Assembly: GCA_030272585.1 (NCBI GenBank)
Contig: BSYQ01000008.1
Span: 5,704,001 to 5,768,000, forward strand
Direction of reading: 5' to 3'
DNA: 64,000 nucleotides
Origin: Bryopsis sp. KO-2023
Lineage: Eukaryota > Chlorophyta > Ulvophyceae > Bryopsidales > Bryopsidaceae
Shown here: positions 39,851 through 63,486 of the stretch, piece after piece
How positions within the stretch are numbered: the stretch's first letter is position 1
How the letters are laid out: each line of letters opens with the position of its first letter
Position numbers and translations under genes: made by a program
The notes under the pieces: generated by a model
Databases searched by the model: none
What the model saw: the letters and a program-made list of their open reading frames with translations, nothing else
What the model was told of the DNA's origin: nothing

Positions 39851-40111
39851 GATTCCACAACCTACAGTAAAAACTGGAAATCCTGTTCAAGTAGCCCTGT
39901 CACCTGACTTTGGATTTGACAGCCGATGCCCAGAAAACGAGTTCGATAATACATTGCTTGTATGCTGGTATTGGATCAAACAAGGCAGTATTTTGTTTTT
40001 CTTTTGGTTGTCGGACTTTACTTTTTATAAATCTCTTGTTTTTTTGGGGGGATAAGGGGAGCTGCATTGGATGCCGTGTTTTACCCGCACTTCAAAAGAA
40101 ATAATCATTGC

Positions 40112-41090
40112 CTCCTGAAAACAAACCTTTTTTTATTTTTCAGATGTTTTAAAATTCTGCTGCTCTGGGGGTGGCATTTGTGGAAAGAAGCCAAGGATTC
40201 AAAAGGAAAAAAAAGTGAACTGATGGGATTAGTCAGTCTGATTTTCCAGAAGAAGTGACCTGTCATCTTTATTTTGGCAAGAAAAAAAAGTGAAAGTGAC
40301 AAAGGGACAAAAAAGATGAGTTTGTATCTGAGGTTAGTCAGACCAAGACCAGCGCGATGATTCACCCCTGATTTTTGGGGAAAAAAAAATTGTTGAGAAC
40401 AGTGGGCTTCACTAATGTCAAAGAAAAAAAAATGGTGAGAGAAAAAAATTATATGGATAGTTCATGAAAAGGAAACAATTCTTAGATTTGAAAAAACTTC
40501 AGGGTTTTTTTTAAGGATTGAGGAGCGCTGGTCTTAAGAAAAAGAGTCCCCCCTCCCCCCTTAAGATGATAAAAAAAACACTGAATTGGAAAGAAAAAAA
40601 AAAAAAGAGATACAAAGGGTAGGGATTTCCAGAGGGGCTCCTCGCCATGGCACCGTCCCACGCGCCATTTCCCCCCGTCCCAGCCCCATGAACCCCCAAC
40701 TTTCCCCGCCCCCACCCCTGTGGCCTCAAGCCTGGAGCCTGGAGCCTGGAGCCTGGAGCCGAAACACTGGAGAGTCGTCTTTGACGCTTTCCCCCGACGC
40801 ATCGTCATGAGCTTTGGTATGTATTTGTCTTCTTTGCAATGTTCTGGCTCTTTTTTTTTCCATGACACTCTATTAACGTTGCAGTTTTGCCATGGGGCAA
40901 GGGGGTGAAAGCTCCCTTGCCCCAACCAACAGGTGGCCAGAAGAGAAGCCATGTAGCCATGAAGATTGAAGCCTCGAGATCAAGGAGCTCTGAAAACGGA
41001 GCCCCCGACCAAGCCCCCGGCGCGTGGGACCCGGCGAGGAGTTTGGGTTTGGGTGGGTGGAGCTCTGGAAATTCCGGGGGGAGGGGGGGG
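40112..41090 (+). repeat. Compound repeat module S+R, copy 1
   Basis: S part (40112-40420) has CAGCGCGATGATTCACCCCT and a gap, then R part (about 40505-41090) starts AGGATTGAGGAGCGCTGGTC and includes CTCGCCATGGCACCGTCCCA, CCCCATGAACCCCCAACTTT, CAACAGGTGGCCA and GAGCCCCCGACCAAGCCCCC. The R part is much more GC-rich than its surroundings. Copies at 43831-44830 and 46517-47590. In copy 1 a GGAGCCT 7-mer is expanded in tandem at 40734-40759. Confidence 0.8.
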
Positions 41091-41209
41091 TAAAATTAAA
41101 AAAAAAAAAAAGAGATGAATTTTAGGAAAAAAAAGAAAAAAAAATTGGTGAAGAAGGTGAAAAGAATTTTAACAAATCCGAAAAAGGATGATTAAAATGT
41201 GAACCGATT

Positions 41210-43830: not shown

Positions 43831-44830
43831 CTCCTGAAGTCAAACCTTTTTTTCTTTTTCGTATGTTTCGGGAGGGTGCTGCTCTGGAGGGTGGCATTTT
43901 TGGGAGGGACCCAGGGATCCAAAAAAATCTCTAATAATATGATGGGATTACTCAGTCTCCTTTTCCAAAAGGAGTGAACTGACAACAGACAAAAAAATAA
44001 AGATGGGGATAAGTAAGGATTTTTTAAATCGAGACCAGCGCGATGATTCACTCCTGCTTTTTCAGAAAAAAAAAAACAAAAAAAACAGACATTGTGGAAG
44101 TCTCGTTCCCTTTCAGATATTTGATCGATTTGAAAAAATAAGTGGGTCAGAGGCAAAGAAAATGACAGGAATTTGATGAGAAAAAATAAAAATGCCCCCA
44201 GCATGGGAGGATTAGATAAATACCTTTTTTTTTCCTACAAGGATTGAGGAGCGCTGGTCTTGGGAAAGAGTTTACTCCCCCTCCCCCAAAGATGAAAAAG
44301 AAAAGAAGATAAAATCAAATTTTAAAAAAAGGGGAGATAAAAGGGTAGGGATTTCCAGCGGGGCTTCTCGCCATGGCACCGTCCCACGCGCCATTTCCCC
44401 CCGTCCCAGCCCCATGAACCCCCAACTTTCCCCACCCCCACCCCTGTGGCCTCAAGCCTGGAGCCTCAAGCCTGAAGCCTGGAGCCTGTTGTTCACTGGA
44501 GAGTTGTCTTCGACGCTTTCCCCCGACGCCACGCTATGAGCTATGGTACGTGTTTGTCTAGTTCGCTTCATTCTTGTTTTGTTTTTCTTTCTGACAGTCT
44601 ATTAACGCATTATTTTTGTCTTGGGGTGAGGGAGTGAAAGCTCCCTTGCCCCACCCAACAGGTGGCCATGAAGACAAGCCTTGTAGCCGTGCAACCATGT
44701 AGCCTCAAGATTGAAGCCTGAAGATCAAGGAGCTCTGAAAACGGAGCCCCCGACCAAGCCCCCGGCGCGTGGGACCCGGCGAGGAGTCTAGGTTTGGGTG
44801 GGTGGGGCGCTGGGAATCCCGTTTAGTAGG
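43831..44830 (+). repeat. Compound repeat module S+R, copy 2
   Basis: Same blocks as copy 1 in the same order: ACCAGCGCGATGATTCACTC (S), AGGATTGAGGAGCGCTGGTC, CTCGCCATGGCACCGTCCCA and GAGCCCCCGACCAAGCCCCC (R). The end has a long G run at 44836-44851. It directly follows the MetRS fragment B exon. Confidence 0.8.
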
Positions 44831-45229
44831 AGAAAGGGGGGGGGGGGGGGGGAGAGGAGGAAAAAATAGATGAAAGAAAAAAAGAAAGGATAGGGTTTTA
44901 ATCGGAGAAAAGGTAGTACATAAGGTTAAAGAAAAAGGCCTCTTGGAGATGCGGAGGAAGGAAGGGGGCAAATAAATTTTCAGAAATGGCAAGGATGGAT
45001 CAGTAAGGTTCCTAAAAGCAGAGAATCATGGATGGAAGATAATGGAAAAGCTTTACTCAAGCATCACATGGAAATGGTGCCGAACTTCGAGCGATAAGGT
45101 AAATTCTGCTCTTGTTATTTGTGATGTGTTTGTTTCCTTTTGAAAAATTTTTGCTTGCTCTATTTTTTCCTGTTTTTCATTTTTGTGTATCAGTGGATGT
45201 TTTCATAAGATTCTGTGTTTATTCTACAG

Positions 45230-46516: not shown

Positions 46517-47590
46517 TGAAATCAAACTTTTTTTCTTTTTCAGATATTTCAAAAGGCTGCTGCTCTGGGTATCTTGGACATGGCTCAGTTGGGATGATAT
46601 ATGTTTTCACTGAGATTGGCATTTTTTGGAGCTTAAGCGGCAAAAAAATATTTTCATGATGGGATTAGTCAGTCTTATTTTCCAGAAGAAGCGAACTGAC
46701 AACAGCGAAGGATTGGCTGCGAGGAAGTTTCTGAAGAAGTGAAACTGAAAATGTAGAAGAAAATATTAGTTCTATTTTGAGTTTATTCAGACCAAGACCT
46801 GCGTGATGATTCACTCCTGTTTTTTGGGGAGAAAAAATTAAAGGCATTTTGAAAGTCTCCTTGGTCTTCGAATTTGATAGGGTGAAAAAAAAAGGATCAA
46901 GAAGAAAATAAATGGGTCAGAGGAGAAAAAATGATATGGAAAATTGATAAAGAGGAAGTAGTTAAAAAGATTAAAATGATGGGAGAATAGGATAAAGGGT
47001 TTTACTTTTTTGCAAGGATTGAGGAGCGCTGGTCTTGGGAAAGAGTTTAACCCCCCCCCCTTTAGATGAAAAATAAAAGAGATAAATCAAATTAAAAAAA
47101 AGGGAGAAATAAAAGGGTAGGGATTTCCAGCGGGGCTCCTCGCCATGGCACCGTCTCACGCGCCATTTCCCCCCGTCCCAGCCCCCATGAACCCCCAACT
47201 TTCCCCGCCCCCACCCCTGTGGCCTCAAGCCTGGAGCCTGGAGCTTGCAGCCAAATCACAGGAGAGTTGTCTTCGACGCTTTCCCCCGACGCAACGCTAT
47301 GAGCTATGGTAGGTGTTTGTCTTGTTCGCTTCATTCTTGTTTTGTTTTCTTTCCGGCAGTCTATTAACGCAGCATTTTTGTCCTGGGGTGAGGGGGTGAA
47401 AGCTCCCTTGCCCCACCCAACAGGTGGCCATGAAGAAAAGAGCCTTGTAGCCATGTAGCCTGAAGATTCGAGCCTGAAGATCAAGGAGCTCTTAAAACGG
47501 AGCCCCCGACCAAGCCCCCGGCGCGTGGGACCCGGCGAGGAGTCTAGGTTTGGGTGGGTGGGACGCTGGGAATCCCATTCAGTAGGAGAA
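46517..47590 (+). repeat. Compound repeat module S+R, copy 3
   Basis: Third copy: the S part has CAAGACCTGCGTGATGATTC at about 46793 and the R part starts with AGGATTGAGGAGCGCTGGTC near 47016 and ends in a G run near 47592-47603. Order and content match copies 1 and 2. Confidence 0.8.
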
Positions 47591-47604
47591 AGGGGGGGGG
47601 GGGG

Positions 47605-52009: not shown

Positions 52010-52264
52010 TGATACGAACATTTTATGTTCGTAGTGGTTGTCCGTGACTGGATTACTTCCGTACCATTTGGTCGGACGAGATCTTGTCCATCCCAGTTGA
52101 CTCAGTTTGATCGACTGGGACGGGGACGAGATCCCTCGATCTCGTCCCGGACAGACCCTATAAGTACCGTCCCTAAACCACAAACCTAACTCTCTTATTC
52201 TCCCTCAACAACCTCGTGATCCCTACAAAGGCACCCGGCCCTTTGGGGCCTCGACTTTGTATCA
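52010..52264 (+). repeat. 5' LTR of the LARD-like element
   Basis: 255 bp, beginning TGATACGAAC and ending CTTTGTATCA (TG...CA ends). A TATA-like TATAAGTA lies at 52159-52166, about 100 bp before the LTR end, and is a plausible core promoter. Near the start ACGAACATTTTATGTTCGTA is a near-perfect palindrome. Confidence 0.93.
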
Positions 52265-55200
52265 ACTGGTTTCGGAGCAAACCTCCCGTTCACCTCCATT
52301 CTTTCCTGACGGAGCAATGGGGACCGCGTGCTTCAAGGACGAAGACGAAACCTCTTCCCGTGATGTGTGCTAACACAAGCCTACCTTCTAGGCACTTTTG
52401 AAGCCAAGGGAAGACGCCCAGACACGGTACGTCGAGAGGGTCACCTCTAACGACTATTCTCTCGACTTACAGGACCATCACTTCTGCCAATCTTTCGAAG
52501 AGCCATCGTCCGCACCACCAGTCCGCAAGGAGGATCTACTTCGTCTCCCAGAGGGACGAGCAGGTCGAACACTACGAACCTCTGTTGTGACTCGCCCGCG
52601 AGAAAGGAAAAGAGTGAACTCGGACGGGCGAGATAGGTCTGGAAGAGCTGTCTCTCAACGACCGAGCTTATGTTCGAGAAGGAGAAAGACTGTACTCTTA
52701 CGGGCCAAGCAGGAAGGAGTTCCAGCTTCTACCAAGTTTGCGTGCATATTTATCGGCCGAACTGGTGGGAGGCTGTACTGTGGATCATGAGTTATGGGAC
52801 GAGAACGAACTGAATTGAACGAGTGGAACAGTACAAGTGGGCAAGAAAGGAAAGAAGTCCGAGTAGTTCCACCTCACACGGCTTCGTTCAGCGTAAAAAG
52901 CGGAACGGAACGTGTGGGCTCTGGTTCTCGTACCACAAAACCTCAGACGAAGATCTTCTATACCGGGACTTGTCTTCCAGCGTCTGGAGACGCCAGCTGA
53001 AAAGTTCAAAGAGGTCAGCGAGCAAGGCAAGTAGGCTGAGTGCGTCAGAGAACTCAAAGCACAGATCGAAGATGAGCCGAGGAAATCCGGACGGGAAGGA
53101 AGAAGAAAATGGGTCTGAAGAAAGTCCAAGGACCGATACCCAGTTCCGCGGAAAAGCACACGAAGTCGGGGCGAATTCTTCGAAGAACGCCTCAAAAAGT
53201 ACAGATGAAGGCAGATCTTCTGAGAAGATGAAGAAAAGAAAGTCCCAGGAGAAATGAGGAACTGGTGATCCACCAGTGCGGACCAACGGAAGGGAAAAAG
53301 AGCACGGAGCTCCACGCAGCTCGGTCTGTGAAAACACGTCGCACCAGTGCCAAAGGAGCAGCAATCAGGTCGGACCAGCAAGAAGAACCACGGACAGGAC
53401 GAGACGATACCAAAAAGCCGTGCGCGGACCGTCCTGAAGCGTATCATGCATCATACATATGTGCTCAATAATTGTACTGCCCAACTCGTCCGAACTGAAG
53501 GATCCCAAGTACCACAAGGACGCCGACTCCCAGAAGACTTTTTGCCACTACAGTTAGCCTTTGCGTTCAGCCCTGTTGCAGCCGTGGATCTGTTTCAAGT
53601 TCCTACGAAAAATGGAAAGGAAGACGCAACCAACGCGGACCACGGGCGAAGGAAAAGATGGTCTACGACAAAAGTGACCTGTACAGAGCCAGTAGTGACA
53701 GTGAAGGAGGACTCCTGGTAGCCTCCACAAGATCAGCCTAAGGGGCGCAAGGGGTGCTCAAAGGAGATGTATCGAGTAGCCTCGAGCGGGGCCACTCAAA
53801 GCAGCCAAGGCGACTTGAATGAAGACGGGACGAAGACACCAGTCAAAGCGTACCAGTGCTAGTTGAACTATAGTGCACGAGTTTCGCTTGTTTGAAAAGA
53901 GAACGTTTACGTTCAGAGGTCGCCGAGTTGTGTACAAGTATCTGAGGACATATACAGGAATCTTTGTTTTTGGGCGTGAAAATGCCAACACGGACCGTCA
54001 AGGTTTTGGTTGGTGCTGAACCGCATTGCTGGTAGACTACGTTGTTTTGTAGTGACGAACGTTTGGTTGACGATGGAATTTTCTGTGAGGTCGCTATGAC
54101 GAAGAGAAAAGAAAAGAAAAAGTGGTTGGCCGAAAAGAAAGAGTTTTGGCTGAGAAAATGTTGCTCTGCGGAAAAGAACAGAACAGAAGGACGATACATC
54201 GTTACTCACAGAATGTGAGGACGTTTTGGTTTTGTCTGGCATTGTCTGTTGCCCTTGTTATTGGAGTAAGGTTTTTCTGGTCGTTTCAACTCGGCCGTGA
54301 AAAAGAAGGCCGATGAGAAAAAAAAGAAGTTTGTCCAAGGGGAACAAGCCAGTCTACCATAGGAAAAAAGCCAGCCGAGTCTTATTCTGGAGGCGCACGG
54401 ACTATTCAAGCCAAAACAAGGCTCATGTACCACGGACGTGGACAACCCAGGACGAGAACGACCCAGGAGACCTCGTCCAGGCTTCAAGGACGTCGATGAC
54501 CAGCGACACACGGACGTACACGTGACCAGAGGAACGAGGACGGGAATATTTGAACGTCGGACCAATTACCTCGGACCGTGCCTCATGACGATTCTCGTTG
54601 TAAGCACGAGCAGCCAGAAAACTGTGCGTGCGTTAAGGGGTACAGGTCCACGGCCGGAAACATCAAAACGGCCAGGGCCACTGCAAAAAGAGGACCGTGT
54701 TATGTGCATGCTGACACCACCCCAAGCAAGCGGACGAAGTTGCTCCAGCCATGAACGAAGCGCCGAGGAGTTCTGTATATTTCTGTACTGTGCTGCAAAC
54801 GTCACAGTGGACCACTGTCGATACCACTGGAAATAATGGTCGAGCTATCAAAATGAGCGACGAGACAACGCTGTACAAAGAAGGGTACTTGTCTCTGAAG
54901 CGGACGGACCGCCTGAAGAACTACACTACCTGGACGCACTGAAGCAGGCACCTCCAAGAAACGATGTCCATGCGACACCATCCTCCATTAACGAGCTCAT
55001 TGCGGCCAAAAGACAAAGGACCATCGACATATCATTACACCAATGGGCCATGGCCGCAATAACGAAGACAAAGAGCTCAGGGAAGATGAGGTCGGAACTT
55101 GGTGGCGTGGAAGGTAAAAAGAGTTCTCTCAGCAACAAATGGCGGTACACTATGCAACGATGCCTGAAGCTTGAAGAGCCTTGCGTGCAATCCATGGAAC

Positions 55201-56628
55201 AAGAAATGCGCATGCAAAGAGGACGATGCACAGTGACTGAGAGGACAAAGCAAGGAGGAACGGAGACCGGAAAAACAACAAAAAGGTTAGGAGGGTGACC
55301 TGGGGAAAGTTATCACGAGAGAGAGAGAGAGACCTTCGCACCGCGAGACGATCCCACGTATGGGACGCGGTTGGACGAGCAGGGACACCGTCCTTAATGA
55401 CGAAGTTAGCATTCGAGGGGAATGCAAGGTGCCTGCCTGCATGCAACGGGAGCGACGTCACAGACGCCCGGGGCGCACCCAGGAGAATAGCCGTCCGAAT
55501 AGGGTCGGACGACGGTTGTGTTCAAAGGAGCGAATGCAACAGAGAGCCATCCAGTTCGAAAGGTCGAACGTGGATGCAGCCTTGTTGAGGAGAACAAGGC
55601 AGCGTTCTTTTGGGGCCTAGCCAAGGGGCAGGCAGAACGTGTTCCTTCACAGTGAGGGCTGTGAAGAGGGCCGACGCTCCTGAAGTCTGAAACTTCGTCT
55701 AGTAGGACGGTCAGGTGGTCGAGCGTAGCGTTTATTTTGGTTCGAAAAGGTTTTAGATAGTTAAGAGTTCTGGTACAGAACGAAAGATTTTGGGTTCTTT
55801 TGGGGTTTACCATTTTTATTTCGATATGGAGTTTTCGACTCAACGACAAGTGGCAGGTTTCTTTTGAACGAAGAGGTTTTGGTTGCAAAAAAAAAACGGA
55901 CTGTCATACATTTGGGGTTGCATGTTCAGAAAAAGAATACCTCTGGAAAGAGGAAGGCTGCTTTGACAAAAGGAAAAAAAAAGAAGAAAGAAGCTATTGT
56001 GAGATTTTCACAGATATGTTAGCCTTGGGGTCGATTTTGAACGATAAACAGGACAGACGTCGACCTTATTCTGATTTTGGACGATTATATCCCCACGCGT
56101 TTACGTCACTGACTAGCAGACCTGGGCGCCGACCCGTTGGACCGGACCGGACCGGACCGGCAACCACTTTCTGGACCGGATTTGACCTTTCTTAGACAGG
56201 TCAAATCCGGTCTGGAAAGGTCAAATCCGGTCCAAGAAAGGTCAAATCCGGTCTAGTAAAGGCCACCTTTTCGAGACCGGATTTGACCTTTCTGGACCGG
56301 ATTTGACCTTTCCAGACAGGTTGTCGCCTGTCTAGTACGGTCATACTCGTGTGACCTGTTTTAGACCGGTGTGACCCTGTTTTAGACCGATGTGACGCCC
56401 AATATGACCTGTTTTAGACCGACTCCAAGTCGGTCTGGACAGGTGGGCCGCCTGTCCAGACCGACCTGGCACCTGTCTAAAACAGGTCACACAATTAAAC
56501 ACTTTTTAATGTGTTAATCGACTGAGAACTGATTCAATGGATTAAAGAACGAAGTATTATTTATTATATGCATTTTTAATGCATGAATGACGTGAGCCAA
56601 GCCCACCAGCCACCGACTAGAGGGAGTC

Positions 56629-56702
56629 GGTCGACTCAAGGAGGATTCGAACCCGGGTTGGCTAAGCCCGAGTCGAAGACACTATCGCTAGTGGACCCCA
56701 CC
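56629..56702 (-). other. tRNA-like sequence, left arm of foldback element 1
   Basis: Mirror copy of 56806-56878, with the B-box complement GGATTCGAACC at 56643-56653. It cannot form a full cloverleaf: the T stem has mismatches and no acceptor stem pairs. Confidence 0.55.
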
Positions 56703-56805
56703 ACAGGGACGCTCAAACGGGGGCCGTTACTTTTAAGTACCCGTTTAATTTTCTAAAATTAAACGGGTACTTAAAAGTAACGGCCCCCTTTTGAGCGTCC
56801 CTGTG

Positions 56806-56878
56806 GTGGGGTCCACTAGCGATAGTGTCTTCGACTCGGGCTTAGCCAACCCGGGTTCGAATCCTCCTTGAGTCGACC
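56806..56878 (+). other. tRNA-like sequence, right arm of foldback element 1
   Basis: Has a perfect B box, GGTTCGAATCC (56854-56864), and an A-box-like TAGCGATAGTG (56817-56827). CGACTC (56832-56837) and GAGTCG (56870-56875) can pair around it. Resembles a decayed tRNA or pol III promoter rather than a functional tRNA gene. Confidence 0.55.
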
Positions 56879-59800
56879 GACTCCCTCTAGTCGGTGGCTG
56901 GTGGGCTTGGCTCACGTCATTCATGCATTAAAAATGCATATAATAAATAACACTTCGTTCTTTAATCCATTGAATCAGTTCCCAATCGATTGATACACAA
57001 TTAGCACGTTAAAAGTGCTTAATTGTGCGACCTGTTCTAGACAGGCTCCAGGTCGGTCTGGACAGGCAGCCCCCCTGCCCAGACCGACCTGGAGCCGGTC
57101 TAAAACAGGAGAACAACCCTGTCAAGACAGGGTCGTTCCGGTTTTAGACAGGTCACATCGCCGGTCTAATAAAGGCGAAATGTGGGTGTGACCTGTCTAA
57201 AAACGGAAAATCTGTCAGAAAACCGGTCCAGATTTCTGCAGATTTCCGAGGTTGATTGGACCGGAGTGGACAGGACCGGACAGGTCACAACCTGTCCGGT
57301 CTTGCAAGGACCGGCGTTTTTTCGTTGGACCGGACCGGACCGGACAGGTCAGCCGGTCCATGGACAGGTTGGACCGGACCGGACCGGTTTTTCGCTGCCG
57401 GTCCGGTCGGGCCCAGGTCTGCTGACTAGTTATATTTGCCAAGAGGAAATTGAAATATTACTGAGCTGGAGTCACCGAGCGGGAAGCTCAGGGACGTGTG
57501 TTTATGCACTCGAGGAATAGCTTCGCGTTAAATACTGAAGTTCGTTTGGCCGACGCATGAACCATGACCAAAAATGGAGTGTATGGAGACCGTTCAACAA
57601 GGACAGGACGCTGCAGGAATAGCATTGAGTACACCATTGAGCTGAGACGACGCCTACACCTCATGTGAACGAAGACGAGGGCCAGGGCCAATGGACCAGG
57701 GGGCGTGCTTTGAACGTGTTTTGGACGTGGAGGGCGACCTTACCTACCACCCAAACGAGTCTCAAGAAAAACACAACAGTCGTCAGTGGAGTTCTCAGCA
57801 AAACTGGATCTGCGGAGTTGACCTGTTTCTCGATGAAAAGAGGCTGTTTGTGATCCTCCTCACTTCTCTTCGGACGCTACACATCCTGTGGCCAAAACAA
57901 ATCTGCTGGCCATTTGGGTTACCAACGTTTTGGAGGGCCAAAACTCGTTGGGGGAGGAGGCACAAGTGGATGCAGAAGTGGAACGACATGCGATAAAAAG
58001 GGAACCAGCCCATTGAACAAAGTAATTATACTGGTGGGATCGTCCCAACGGAGCCGGACGCATTTCCTTCTCCACCAGTTCGAACCAACATGCGGACCTA
58101 AAGAGGTTTGCATTGCGCTAAGTGGCCAACGAGCCACACCAGAGGCTAGCAACACCAAGGACAGTTGTTGAGCCGACTTGATCACGCCGAACACAAGAGG
58201 TATCACGGCAGAGGAAGGACCGTGGACCATCTTGCTCGGGCAATCGCAATGGACTGGGTGATGGTATGAGGATACGCCAGGACGCCGGCGGAAAGGTTGT
58301 TGAACCGACCTCGCTTCACCAAACAAGGAGGAGCACATCACCATGAGTCTCAAGAAGAACTAAACACAGTTCATGAGATTCGCGGTCGTAGCTGATTGCG
58401 GACGATAGGAGGATCAAGGATGCACAAGTTTGTACCAAGTATAAATACGGCCGGAAAAGGAATTTCCTAAGGCTCGAATACATGGATACACTTGAGGCAC
58501 AATAAAGGATTATCCACACGCATCACCAAGCTATCTCAGCTCAAGAACAGGGAGTACATATCAACGAGTACGATCACTGAATCTAGAAGTGATTGTGGAC
58601 GAGGAGCTCGATTGAAATTGGAGCTCGAAGAAAGCGTAAAGGGAATTCTGTACACGAGCTAAGCTCTACAAGATGTGGACCATCGAGGGGAAGCAAAAGC
58701 TCGAAGAATTCATATTCTAGTGACGTTTAGGCTTGGGCCTGGAATCAAGATATCTTGGAACATAAGCTTGTCTTGTGCTTTGGACGAAAGTCAAGACTAT
58801 TCAGCGAGACCCGTACGAGGAAGGTGGAGACGGAGTGAGTGTAAAGTCAAACTCGTCCCAGTGGAGGGCCGGAATGGGACGGATCGAATCCGCTGCCACG
58901 AGTCTGACGAGGTGTCTCCAGCTCGTACGAACTGGATAGCTTGACCCACCGAAAGGAAAGCGAGACAAAGGTTATTGATGTGAGGAAGAGTTCGATGATA
59001 CGACGATCGAGCAAGACAAGTTGAGTCCATTAATGCGACCAAGAGAAAGTTTATTGATGGAAGAAGGTCGGAGACAACAGTGATCTTAAAAAAGGACGAC
59101 CAAGACGACGGAAAGGAACGGGACAGAATGGTCGTGATACCAGCGGGAATTAAGCAGTGGATGAAGATCTATTGGCTGTACTAAAACGAAAGGAAATTGG
59201 AAATGGCCCAAGGAGAAGGACCCTTGGACGAAGAAACTCACAGATGCAGAAGAAGTGGTAAAGACTTGAAGTAACAAGCTGTTGACAAAAGAACTGCGGA
59301 AGTCAGGGACTGAAGGTCTGGTTCAGGAAGACAGGGTACGAGCAGGACTTGAACCAACGCCACTGAAACAAAAGCCATGTGAAGCGTGACAATAGTTGTC
59401 GTCAGTAAAGGAAAGAAGTTTATCGAACGGGCAAAGAAGTCGTCACACAACAAGAGTTCGTCGGTCGGGGACAAGACTTCACTGTCCGAACAAAGGAGTT
59501 CGTCGAACGAAGACAAGAGTTCGCTGGCCGGGCAGAGGAGACCTTTGAACGGGGACAGGAGTGAGCTGACCGGAAAAAGAACAGTTTGTTGGACGAGAGT
59601 CCGTCAGGCTGGGAACGTCGGCCAAGTTGAACCCCCACTGTCCCAGTCGAACGAATGACACTTCAAAGTGTGCCATGCTCGTACCAAACGGGTGATCGAG
59701 TCAGCTACGGACGAAGGTGGAAACGCTCGCCAATAGGCACGCGCACCAGCACTCGTTCGAGTTGATAATGTAGCCTTGGGCACGATGCAAACTGAGATGT

Positions 59801-60901
59801 CAACAGGACCAGCACCTGGACAGCGCAGAAGCGAGCGGACGAGGTGACTGGCGCAAGGCACGAGCTTTTTCGAGTGTGGACGAACGGTACAGTGCACTGG
59901 CGTTGAGAACGAGTCGTCACTGAGCACCTTTCGACGCGACTGGTGCAGAGGCCAGTGGACGAAGTAGACCAAAGGCGCGCCTGAACGAAGAAGCTGACGC
60001 ACACTTCGGACATGGTAGACGAGACTTTGGGCGACTGGGTACCACCCTGCAGCAGGAGGCGACCACCCAATGACTTCACACTGATCACCATCACCACATC
60101 GCCAAGGAGGAAACGAATCCTCAGACACCATGTGAGAGAAATCAGCATGAGAAGATGTTGCGGACGAACACTTCTGGCAACACGGACGACACTCCGGATG
60201 ACCAAGGACCAACAGAAGGGCAAACCTTGAACTCGGACGACTACGTCCGAGAAGGCATAACTAAGCGACTATTGATCCAAATGGCTTGTACAAGGTACCG
60301 TTGGATGCAAAATTAAACAGGCTATCCACCGAAGGTTGTTTCAGAGTAGTCGAAAAAGTACTGAAGCAGTTCTGCCTGAAAAACTGAGTCGAGGTCACAG
60401 GTATTCGGACAAGTCTTTTTGGACAAACCGAGTTTATGCGGGACAGTTGCGTTTACTTGTTCCCTTTGATTTTTGTGGTTCCGGTGGTCGGGAACTTTAT
60501 ATTTGTGTTTATGGTTGATTGTTCTATCGGCATTATGCCTGTCGAAGTGTCGAGATATTCTCGCTGCAAGCCAATAGGTATAGCGCCCAGTATCGACCTG
60601 GATATTTCGACTGTGGTTGGATAATGCACTGAGTAAGGAATTGTAGGATGAACGACCACACTTGTGGAAAGCACTGTGGGGTATAAATGTTCAGTTGATT
60701 TCAAGAGGAACGACACTAGTCGTCAGGATATTGTTTCGGATTTGAAAGAACGGTTGTGGACTTCACAGAGTGGAGTACAAACGGAATTTGTTTTTGAGAG
60801 ACGTGAAGGAGGGAAGTGAATATTGAACGAGGGACAAGTTTTGGACTATATTATTGTTCAGTGATATTCCTTTAAGAAAACACAGGGAAGGTTTTGGTCT
60901 A

Positions 60902-60938
60902 ACCCCCCACATTCACGAGGGCGTGAACTCGTGGGGGG
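60902..60938 (+). other. Hairpin next to the polypurine tract
   Basis: CCCCCCAC at 60903-60910 pairs with GTGGGGGG at 60931-60938, and TTCACG with CGTGAA between them, giving a long imperfect stem that includes the start of the polypurine tract. Confidence 0.6.
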
Positions 60939-60948
60939 AGGGAGTAGT

Positions 60949-61203
60949 TGATACGAACATTTTATGTTCGTAGTGGTTGTCCGTGACTGGATTACTTCCG
61001 TACCATTTGGTCGGACGAGATCTTGTCCATCCCAGTTGACTCAGTTTGATCGACTGGGACGGGGACGAGATCCCTCGATCTCGTCCCGGACAGACCCTAT
61101 AAGTACCGTCCCTAAACCACAAACCTAACTCTCTTATTCTCCCTCAACAACCTCGTGATCCCTACAAAGGCACCCGGCCCTTTGGGGCCTCGACTTTGTA
61201 TCA
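60949..61203 (+). repeat. 3' LTR of the LARD-like element
   Basis: 255 bp and apparently identical to the 5' LTR when read base by base. It is directly preceded by the polypurine tract and followed by the ACATG target duplication. Confidence 0.93.
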
Positions 61204-61793
61204 ACATGCACGAGCCACACGGTGTGCCGAACCCACTGGAACCTCATGATTATCCTCGTGCGCTTATACGGGGTGTGGCAGGAACAGCGAATCGACCCGC
61301 CACAGGCATACTAGGGATATGATAGGCAATGATCGGCCTGCTAAAAATAGGTCTAAACGGGGTCGGATCGGGATCGGATTTTCACTAATGTCTATTATAG
61401 GGTGATACAAAAATAATCGGTTTTTTTTTTTTTTTTTTTACCGATCATGATCGGTGCCGATCATCGGTGATCGGTGTCTTGATCGGACCGATTAATCGAG
61501 ATCGGCGACCGATCCGATCAAAGAACGGCGTCGGCCGATCCCGATCCCGATCCGATCAAGGCGCGGAGCTGTGATCGGAATAGTCGGCCGATCAAAGTCG
61601 GCGTTTTTTTTTGATCGGTACAATGATCGGGGAGAACCGATCATGATCGGTATGAAAGGCGCGAAGTCGGTGAATTTGGTAAATTTCCGATCAGATCGGA
61701 TCTGCCGATCACCCACCGATCCCGATCCGATCATGATCGGAAATCGGGTGACGCACAAAGTAACCCCCGCAGGGTCCCCAGAACCCAAGGGAA

Positions 61794-61866
61794 CCGAGTG
61801 GGATTCGAACACCATACCGCACGATGCCGAGTCATCTACACTGAGCACTAAGCCAAGTGGACCACG
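61794..61866 (-). other. tRNA-like sequence, left arm of foldback element 2
   Basis: Mirror of 61957-62031 with the complementary B-box-like GGATTCGAACA at 61801-61811. Differs from its partner by about one base in the D-arm region. Confidence 0.55.
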
Positions 61867-61956
61867 ATGATTTCGTGGCTGTTGCGATCATATACCTTAA
61901 TCTGTTTGTAATTCTGTGAAATTAGGGTATATTATTGCAACAACCACAGAATTATC

Positions 61957-62031
61957 GTGGTCCACTTGGCTTAGCGCTCAGTGTAGATGACTCGGCATCG
62001 TGCGGTATGGTGTTCGAATCCCACTCGGTTC
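61957..62031 (+). other. tRNA-like sequence, right arm of foldback element 2
   Basis: Contains TGGTCCACTTGGCTTAGCGC and a B-box-like TGTTCGAATCC (one base off the GGTTCGANTCC consensus). It shares GGTCCACT and GACTCGG with the tRNA-like unit of element 1. A full cloverleaf does not form. Confidence 0.55.
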
Positions 62032-62378
62032 CCTTGGGTTCTGGGGACCCTGCGGGGGTTACTTTGTGCGTCACCCGATTTCCGATCATGATCGGATCGG
62101 GATCGGTGGGTGATCGGCAGATCCGATCTGATCGGAAAACGCCGATCCCGATCCCGATCCGATCTGGTTTCCGAGGCAGAATTGGGTGATCGGCCGATTT
62201 TGATCGGAAAAGTCGGACCGATTTTTGTGATCGGTCCGATTTTGATCGGTGATCGGTTTGATCGGACCGATCTGATCGATGATCGATTTGATCGGAAACC
62301 GCAGGTGCCGATCTTGATCGGAGATCGGTTTGATCGATGACCGACATGTCGGCATCGGATCCCTAGTATGGCCACAGG

Positions 62379-63150: not shown

Positions 63151-63486
63151 CGCCGACGCCGTCGCCGACACCGTCGTTCGTGACAAGCGCGTCGGCGACG
63201 TCACCAGGAGCGTCGGCGACGGAAATATGATGTGATTGTCACATCGGTTGGTGCAGTCACAGCGTCGCCGTCAAGTGTCATTCGTCGGCGACGCTGCGTC
63301 GGTGACGGAGGCGTCGCCGACGGCATCGTTTAGGGCGTCGCCGTCGAGTGTCATTCGTCGGCGACGCTGCGTCGGTGACGGGCGCGTCGCCGACGGCGTC
63401 GTTTATGGCGTCGCCGTCAGGTGTCATTCGTCGGCGACGCTGCGTCGGTGACGGGCGCGTCGCCGACGGCATCGTTATGGCGTCGT
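63146..63486. repeat. GTCGGCGACG satellite with a 73-bp tandem unit
   Basis: From 63263 a 73-bp unit starting CGTCGCCGTC repeats at 63263, 63336 and 63409 with few changes, ending near 63486. Each unit has the palindrome-like CGTCGGCGACG and GCGTCGCCGACG. The part at 63146-63240 has the same motifs without the period. High GC contrasts with the surroundings. Confidence 0.85.

Follow-up and report, generated by a model that had tools for sequence, protein, structure and literature searches.

A 64,000-nucleotide stretch of the Bryopsis sp. KO-2023 genome (C8:5704001-5768000, here called the window) harbours two small transposable elements, element A (56117..57421, forward strand, 1305 bp) and element B (61307..62370, forward strand, 1064 bp). 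With a probability of roughly 0.78, both are non-autonomous hAT transposons, belonging to two different resident hAT families and carrying a shareable core module. Each element would have retained a few hundred bases from either end of its autonomous parent, that is, the terminal inverted repeat (TIR) and a subterminal array of one hexamer, and the two would be mobilised in trans by the two families. The interior would have been replaced by filler, in which two tRNA-like units face each other as a palindrome, and this palindrome may act as a module that is present, absent or shared between families, the core of B being found inside the ends and arms of a third family, C. The genome searched was the 91-Mb assembly of 28 contigs. 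Thirty loci were read for A and thirty for B, and copies were taken from the best 40 of 291 first-look candidates scored genome-wide for A and from the best 40 of 682 for B.

Element A is flanked by an exact 8-bp target-site duplication, CTGACTAG, read from the sequence at 56109..56116 and 57422..57429. Its TIRs, CAGACCTGGGC on the left (56117..56127, forward strand) and its counterpart on the right (57411..57421, reverse strand), agree at 11 of 12 terminal bases. The left arm (56117..56376, forward strand) and the right arm (57157..57421, forward strand) carry a GACCGG array, and they enclose the core palindrome alpha (56408..57109), which is 92% identical to its own reverse complement. Within this core, a facing tRNA-like pair is marked by box-B-like GTTCGAATCC sites at 56643..56652 (reverse strand) and 56855..56864 (forward strand), 212 bases apart from start to start. 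The preliminary description of this DNA had recognised A correctly as an element, but began it at 56118, one base too late.

Element B possesses a similar organisation. The exact 8-bp duplication GCCACAGG stands at 61299..61306 and 62371..62378, so that the duplications proposed earlier hold for both elements, and the TIRs, CATACTAGGGAT at 61307..61318 (forward strand) and its counterpart at 62359..62370 (reverse strand), agree at 12 of 12 terminal bases. GATCGG arrays are carried by the left arm (61307..61745, forward strand) and the right arm (62077..62370, forward strand). Between them lies the 331-bp core palindrome beta (61746..62076), with GTTCGAATCC at 61801..61810 (reverse strand) and 62012..62021 (forward strand), 211 bases apart from start to start.

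Among the loci read, an exact 8-bp duplication was present in 27 of the 30 for A and in 20 of the 30 for B, with each end set to the best-fitting position within 6 bases. The B loci without an exact duplication include partial copies, and also the full-length or near-full-length L036, L037, L046, L053 and L054. Among the candidates scored, the 23 best matches to A and the 22 best matches to B are 97-100% identical to the window copy, and both families have therefore probably spread recently. Of three frames of at least 130 aa over B, none gave a Pfam match; the one such frame at the left end of A gave merely a sub-threshold match to DUF7808, and all three open reading frames of at least 60 aa at A run across its ends.

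Element A is enclosed by 257-bp direct repeats, 100% identical to each other, at window positions 52010-61205. The repeats start with TGATAC and end near GTATCA, and ACATG is found on both outer sides. This interval of about 9.2 kb is probably a young long terminal repeat (LTR)-type element into which A has inserted. The position of A between identical repeats that are likely LTR ends also points to a recent insertion of A.

The ends and arms align at 82-95% identity with the ends of a larger element containing a hAT domain match in all four families tested (A, B, C and a further family, E), and all four parents bear their own exact 8-bp duplication. The link anticipated in the preliminary description, between an arm motif and a hAT element with the same ends, was thus found in each family. 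The parent of B (L061) encodes a 784-aa frame with PF05699, the hAT dimerisation domain; B positions 1-365 are 88% identical to its right end and positions 816-1064 are 94% identical to its left end. The parent of E (L062) encodes an 811-aa frame with PF05699, and its ends match those of E at 95% and 87%. For A, the parent spans C1:9347146-9361218, where A positions 1-184 match the right end of L063 at 82% and positions 1076-1305 match the left end of L064 at 84%; it possesses a PF05699 exon, located in L063, and also a long frame that, by eye, resembles a Ty3/gypsy polyprotein and is probably nested. In the parent of C (C3:7809920-7815148, L076/L077), whose ends match at 94% and 84%, the PF05699 match lies inside the TIR-bounded interval. 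The transposases of 784 and 811 aa share 52% identity, and C-terminal pieces of the A parent exon and the 784-aa protein are 32% identical over 63 residues. A CxxC...HxxxH finger was seen by eye near the N-terminus of the 784-aa and 811-aa proteins, in which Pfam reported no BED domain.

The arms of A and B are collinear with their parents and the interior is unrelated, as in Ds2-type elements; the B core region gave no match to L061. A stretch adjoining another PF05699 match (L078) is 79% identical to the A left arm. One CAGACCTGGGC-bounded interval of 9.2 kb, C2:1524770-1533967, was rejected as the parent of A, as its 8-bp flanks differ at the two ends; each end matches about half an A-type element. 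Another interval of 10.3 kb (C1:2120610-2130922) has A-type ends, the exact duplication GCAGGAAC and a long insertion.

Genome-wide, the TIR pattern CAGACCTGGGC was found at 409 sites (10 for the reversed control), CATACTAKGGAT at 572 (control, 3) and CAGAGCTGGGC at 157 (control, 17), with positions listed for 100 sites per pattern. The search for PF05699 gave 150 matches from the best 150 of 185 candidates scored. In a survey of C1, and of C2 below 4.93 Mb, 22 PF05699 places were covered. Six of them are flanked on either side by copies of one TIR no more than 6.5 kb away (784 class, three; 839 class, two; partial, one), twelve have a TIR on one side, three on neither side, and one has different TIRs on its two sides.

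The window contains 33 GACCGG and 68 GATCGG, compared with shuffle means of 18.1 and 22.6, and none of 100 shuffles reached either count. Twenty-seven out of the 33 GACCGG lie in A and 50 out of the 68 GATCGG in B, in agreement with the preliminary description of GACCGG arms in one element and GATCGG arms in the other. Among the copies read, the arrays are also family-specific. Each of the 30 A loci has 21-27 GACCGG, with a single GATCGG across all 30, and 22 of the 30 B loci (L031-L052) have 47-51 GATCGG each and zero GACCGG, or one GACCGG among the 22 when recounted with six more bases per end. The other eight B loci (L053-L060), which are diverged or partial, contain 22-52 GATCGG, with one GACCGG in each of two. 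Altogether a stray single hexamer of the other kind occurs in three of the 60 loci (L023, L053 and L054), and no mixed array was found among them; free variation of the hexamer within a family, which would have spoken against the preliminary description, was not seen in those copies of A and B that were read. Over the two terminal stretches of 300 bp taken together, A and its parent have 26 GACCGG each; GATCGG occurs 39 times in B against 35 times in the B parent, and 25 times in E against 19 times in the E parent. The E arms add the word GATCGTGATCG (11 vs 0). The match of arms to parents and the retention of one hexamer in A and B copies are as predicted for transposase-specific arrays.

The preliminary description had treated A and B as one family that keeps its ends and core while the array drifts in place to a new hexamer. 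Such an origin would explain why the ends agree at 7 of 10 positions, a count repeated by eye, why the two hexamers are one base apart, and why the facing box-B-like sites stand 211-212 bases apart in both cores. However, the ends and arms match two different hAT parents, whose proteins share the 32% identity given above, the best alignment between A and B has an E value of 1.1, and outside box B the alignment of alpha with beta is not significant (p 0.094). With no mixed array in the 60 loci to revive it, drift within one family is largely refuted and very improbable. Ends and arms travel together, and it is the core that is seen in several contexts.

A second alternative holds that the hexamer arrays are satellite-like by-products of slippage or hairpins, with no role in transposase binding. 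Nested inverted repeats are present within the arms and GATCGG arrays accompany two different transposases, both of which this alternative would accommodate. We consider it unlikely, in view of the motif shared by parent and derivative in all four families and of the subterminal repeats that bind transposase in Ac and Hermes (PMC3260210, PMC10368747). If A and B are derivatives of two hAT families, the hexamer array most likely represents predicted docking sites for the transposase of the parent, by analogy with AAACGG in maize Ac.

Inverted repeats are also characteristic of Drosophila Foldback elements, which possess long inverted repeats with short subrepeats, their outer arms being long inverted copies of each other. 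Unlike these, A and B have their longest inverted repeat in the centre, and matches from outer arm to outer arm do not exceed 36 nt.

Maize Ds2 is a closer likeness. Ds2 elements have Ac ends with AAACGG repeats that bind Ac transposase, and most of them contain filler (PMC3260210). Similar to A and B, about 200 bp of the autonomous end are kept on each side, with a hexamer repeat, 8-bp duplications and a filler interior. The filler in Bryopsis differs from that of Ds2 in being a palindromic tRNA-like block, and one such block occurs in hAT families whose ends differ. Hermes and Kat1 likewise have short repeats within their hAT ends; in Hermes, BED fingers of the transposase bind left-end subterminal repeats (PMC10368747), and in Kat1 a role of hexamer repeats has been suggested (PMC4763223). 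Unlike in these systems, the arrays described here are densely packed, an intact B having 47-51 GATCGG, and some of the co-resident families have different arrays.

The sharing of a core is seen in family C (L012, L065, L066 and L067), which has CAGAGCTGGGC ends and arms rich in CGTTAC and CGGTAC words. All four loci contain the whole 331-bp beta core at 94.3-95.5% identity. They came from a search with half of the B core (best 40 of 425 candidates scored), which reached places outside the listed B copies; the locus L012 stops at its far end. In an arm comparison over 21 loci, C arms matched C loci only, and B arms matched no C locus. The diverged B-armed elements (L053, L055 and L058-L060) have cores 83-90% identical to that of B. 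As the C cores are closer (94-95%) than these, the identities suggest exchange of the core after the B-arm lineages split. A tree was built from 31 beta cores, leaving out hits below 300 bp and dropping L003, L054 and L057 as duplicate or partial, and approximately unbiased (AU) tests on it gave p 0.195 and 0.212, which does not prove exchange. Exchange would likely have come about when gap repair following excision was interrupted and palindromes underwent template switching or conversion with one another; the new combination of ends and core would then have been amplified.

Genome-wide, a 32-base beta word, with up to three mismatches, was found 77 times forward and 79 times reverse (control, 0), and GGATTCGAAC facing GTTCGAATCC at 187-217 bases was found at 250 places (control, 0), 50 of which were listed. 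The survey on C1 and C2 covered 34 of these facing pairs, with core classes assigned by eye. Beta cores stand beside CAGAGCTGGGC in nine pairs, beside CATACTAGGGAT in one and beside CATACTATGGAT in one; gamma (14) and delta (3) cores stand beside CATACTATGGAT, and alpha cores (3) beside CAGACCTGGGC. For two alpha2 cores, no TIR of the three patterns lies within 700 bp, and one further pair, beside CATACTATGGAT, is not palindromic. Of the 34 pairs, 22 have an end on each side, 10 have one on a single side and 2 have none. The locus L075 holds an alpha2 core that is 79% identical to the A core. Its right-hand arm (L080/L075, G000:C1:11380650-11382550) is rich in CTGTCCTGTGC-type words and possibly represents a further end family.

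The core can also be absent. The 640-bp copy L079 joins A positions 1-320 (97.5% identity) to A positions 965-1305 (99.7%) and has its own duplication. The missing middle, A positions 321-964, corresponds to 56437..57080 in the window, with approximate ends since the junction falls within a short shared repeat. Eight out of 20 CAGACCTGGGC pairs less than 3 kb apart are 640-784 bp long, and of these L079 was read. Other copies are damaged in the core. L068, L069, L070 and L072 have a break or an interruption in or close to the centre of the palindrome, as a fragile hairpin would lead one to expect. The C-type element L072 (G000:C5:4145300-4147000) carries near this centre an interruption of about 480 bp, with two further GTTC(A/G)AATC words.

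A single unit is found in element D, a 466-bp element in the L080 region (G000:C1:11380650-11382550), next to the alpha2 core of L075, with CAGAGATAGGAC ends and the duplication ATTGGGAA. It has one GTTCGAATCC and shares 52 bp with beta at 90% identity, a combination that points to a possible origin of the palindrome from a D-like unit through inverted duplication. Element D, the 250 facing pairs and the occurrence of the same core between unrelated arms could also be taken to mean that the palindromic tRNA-like core is itself mobile or self-copying and inserts into hAT elements. This seems quite unlikely, as at least one of three known hAT ends lies within 700 bp in 32 of the 34 pairs, the other two being alpha2 cores, whose ends were outside the pattern set. 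In addition, the single alpha units read among the candidates scored (L069 and L070) sit in broken A-type elements, and no core-specific target duplication was noticed, although none was systematically searched for.

The cores might instead be independent captures of unrelated sequence, with the sharing between B and C as one accident. Homology of the A and B cores is not demonstrable, so that this pair is no example of a shared core: over the 62 bases lying upstream of box B, the alignment of alpha with beta does not surpass that of shuffled sequence (the same p 0.094), and in a local test 103 of 1000 shuffles scored as high. The box-B-like sites face each other 208-216 bases apart, start to start, in all core classes, a common spacing that is partly circular for gamma, delta and alpha2, as the search pattern that found them imposed the range. 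Alpha and beta, however, were given beforehand and are spaced 212 and 211. Beta also stands beside three end types, and an alpha-like core is present in L075, away from the three TIR patterns. Several pairs of cores align beyond shuffles (p values uncorrected, 15 comparisons): alpha-gamma (p 0.003), beta-gamma (0.007), gamma-delta (0.001), beta-D (0.014), delta-D (0.014) and alpha-alpha2 (0.001). Independent capture is possible but doubtful.

The designation of the cores as tRNA-like rests on the box-B-like sites, on box-A-like words seen by eye and on the spacing. The motifs GGTCCACT and GACTCGG, which the preliminary description had reported from both cores, are present in both by eye, and the cores are palindromic with facing GTTCGAATCC; the spacing of the two motifs differs, though, and neither ARAGORN nor Rfam recognised a tRNA. 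ARAGORN detected none in the window, the Rfam listings for the alpha, beta and gamma units contain no tRNA match, and intact tRNA genes in the window cores were therefore rejected. Delta reached 20.4 and 11 bits with transfer-messenger RNA (tmRNA) models, far below the gathering score of 47, and element D scored 22.0 bits (gathering score 29). Matches to microRNA families in arms and cores were below gathering scores, are probably due to hairpins and were not used. Short interspersed elements (SINEs) derived from tRNAs are delimited by duplications of variable length and have a 3' tail. The copies with duplications described here have hAT ends and 8-bp duplications instead, and no head recognised by a tRNA model was found in them.

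Several observations weigh against the derivation of A and B from two hAT families with a shareable tRNA-like module. A parent with a complete single frame was seen for B and E only. Among the C loci, only L065 and L066 were read with both ends and an exact duplication, and L067 retains only 45 bp of the left arm. The tree of cores does not reject a topology in which the B-armed cores form a single clade that excludes C (AU p 0.195). No core gave an Rfam tRNA match above the cut-off, and the core classes depend on assignment by eye. Finally, GATCGG is common to B, E and both parents, so that one hexamer per transposase fails; the earlier proposal that the hexamer confers transposase specificity agrees with the match of motif and parent in four of four families, but the hexamer alone would not tell B from E.

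More broadly, but rather doubtfully, hAT parts might be interchangeable throughout the genome, with several transposase-specific sets of ends and arrays combined with several palindromic cores that hitch-hike between families. The facing RNA polymerase III-type promoters or the hairpin would then perhaps raise transposition or escape from silencing. The co-resident hAT families, each tested one with a derivative, offer a natural test of end discrimination, with a one-base contrast (GACCGG/GATCGG) between distant transposases and with GATCGG common to two transposases at 52% identity. As the shared core shows, what lies inside a small DNA transposon may recur in another transposon family, and such elements therefore cannot be classified by their interior alone.

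A small DNA transposon with SINE-type sequence is also known in MER6, a miniature inverted-repeat transposable element (MITE) of Tc1/mariner origin with a conserved SINE V domain; unlike for the elements described here, its abstract mentions neither a facing tRNA-like palindrome nor exchange between transposon families (PMC6887750). In a literature search mostly without subscription journals, we recognised no description of palindromic tRNA-like cores in hAT elements. As far as this search shows, the recurrence of such filler in hAT families with different ends is new.

Other repeats were observed on C5 and in the window. Between about 3.12 and 3.77 Mb of C5 there are tens of tRNA matches of equal score, many about 3.19 kb apart, resembling a tandem array. 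Window positions 44135-44848 and 46905-47604 form a repeat pair with 86% identity, of which a further copy, at 40063-41152, has diverged more, and a 73-bp tandem repeat of about three copies (94% matches) is present at 63262-63485.

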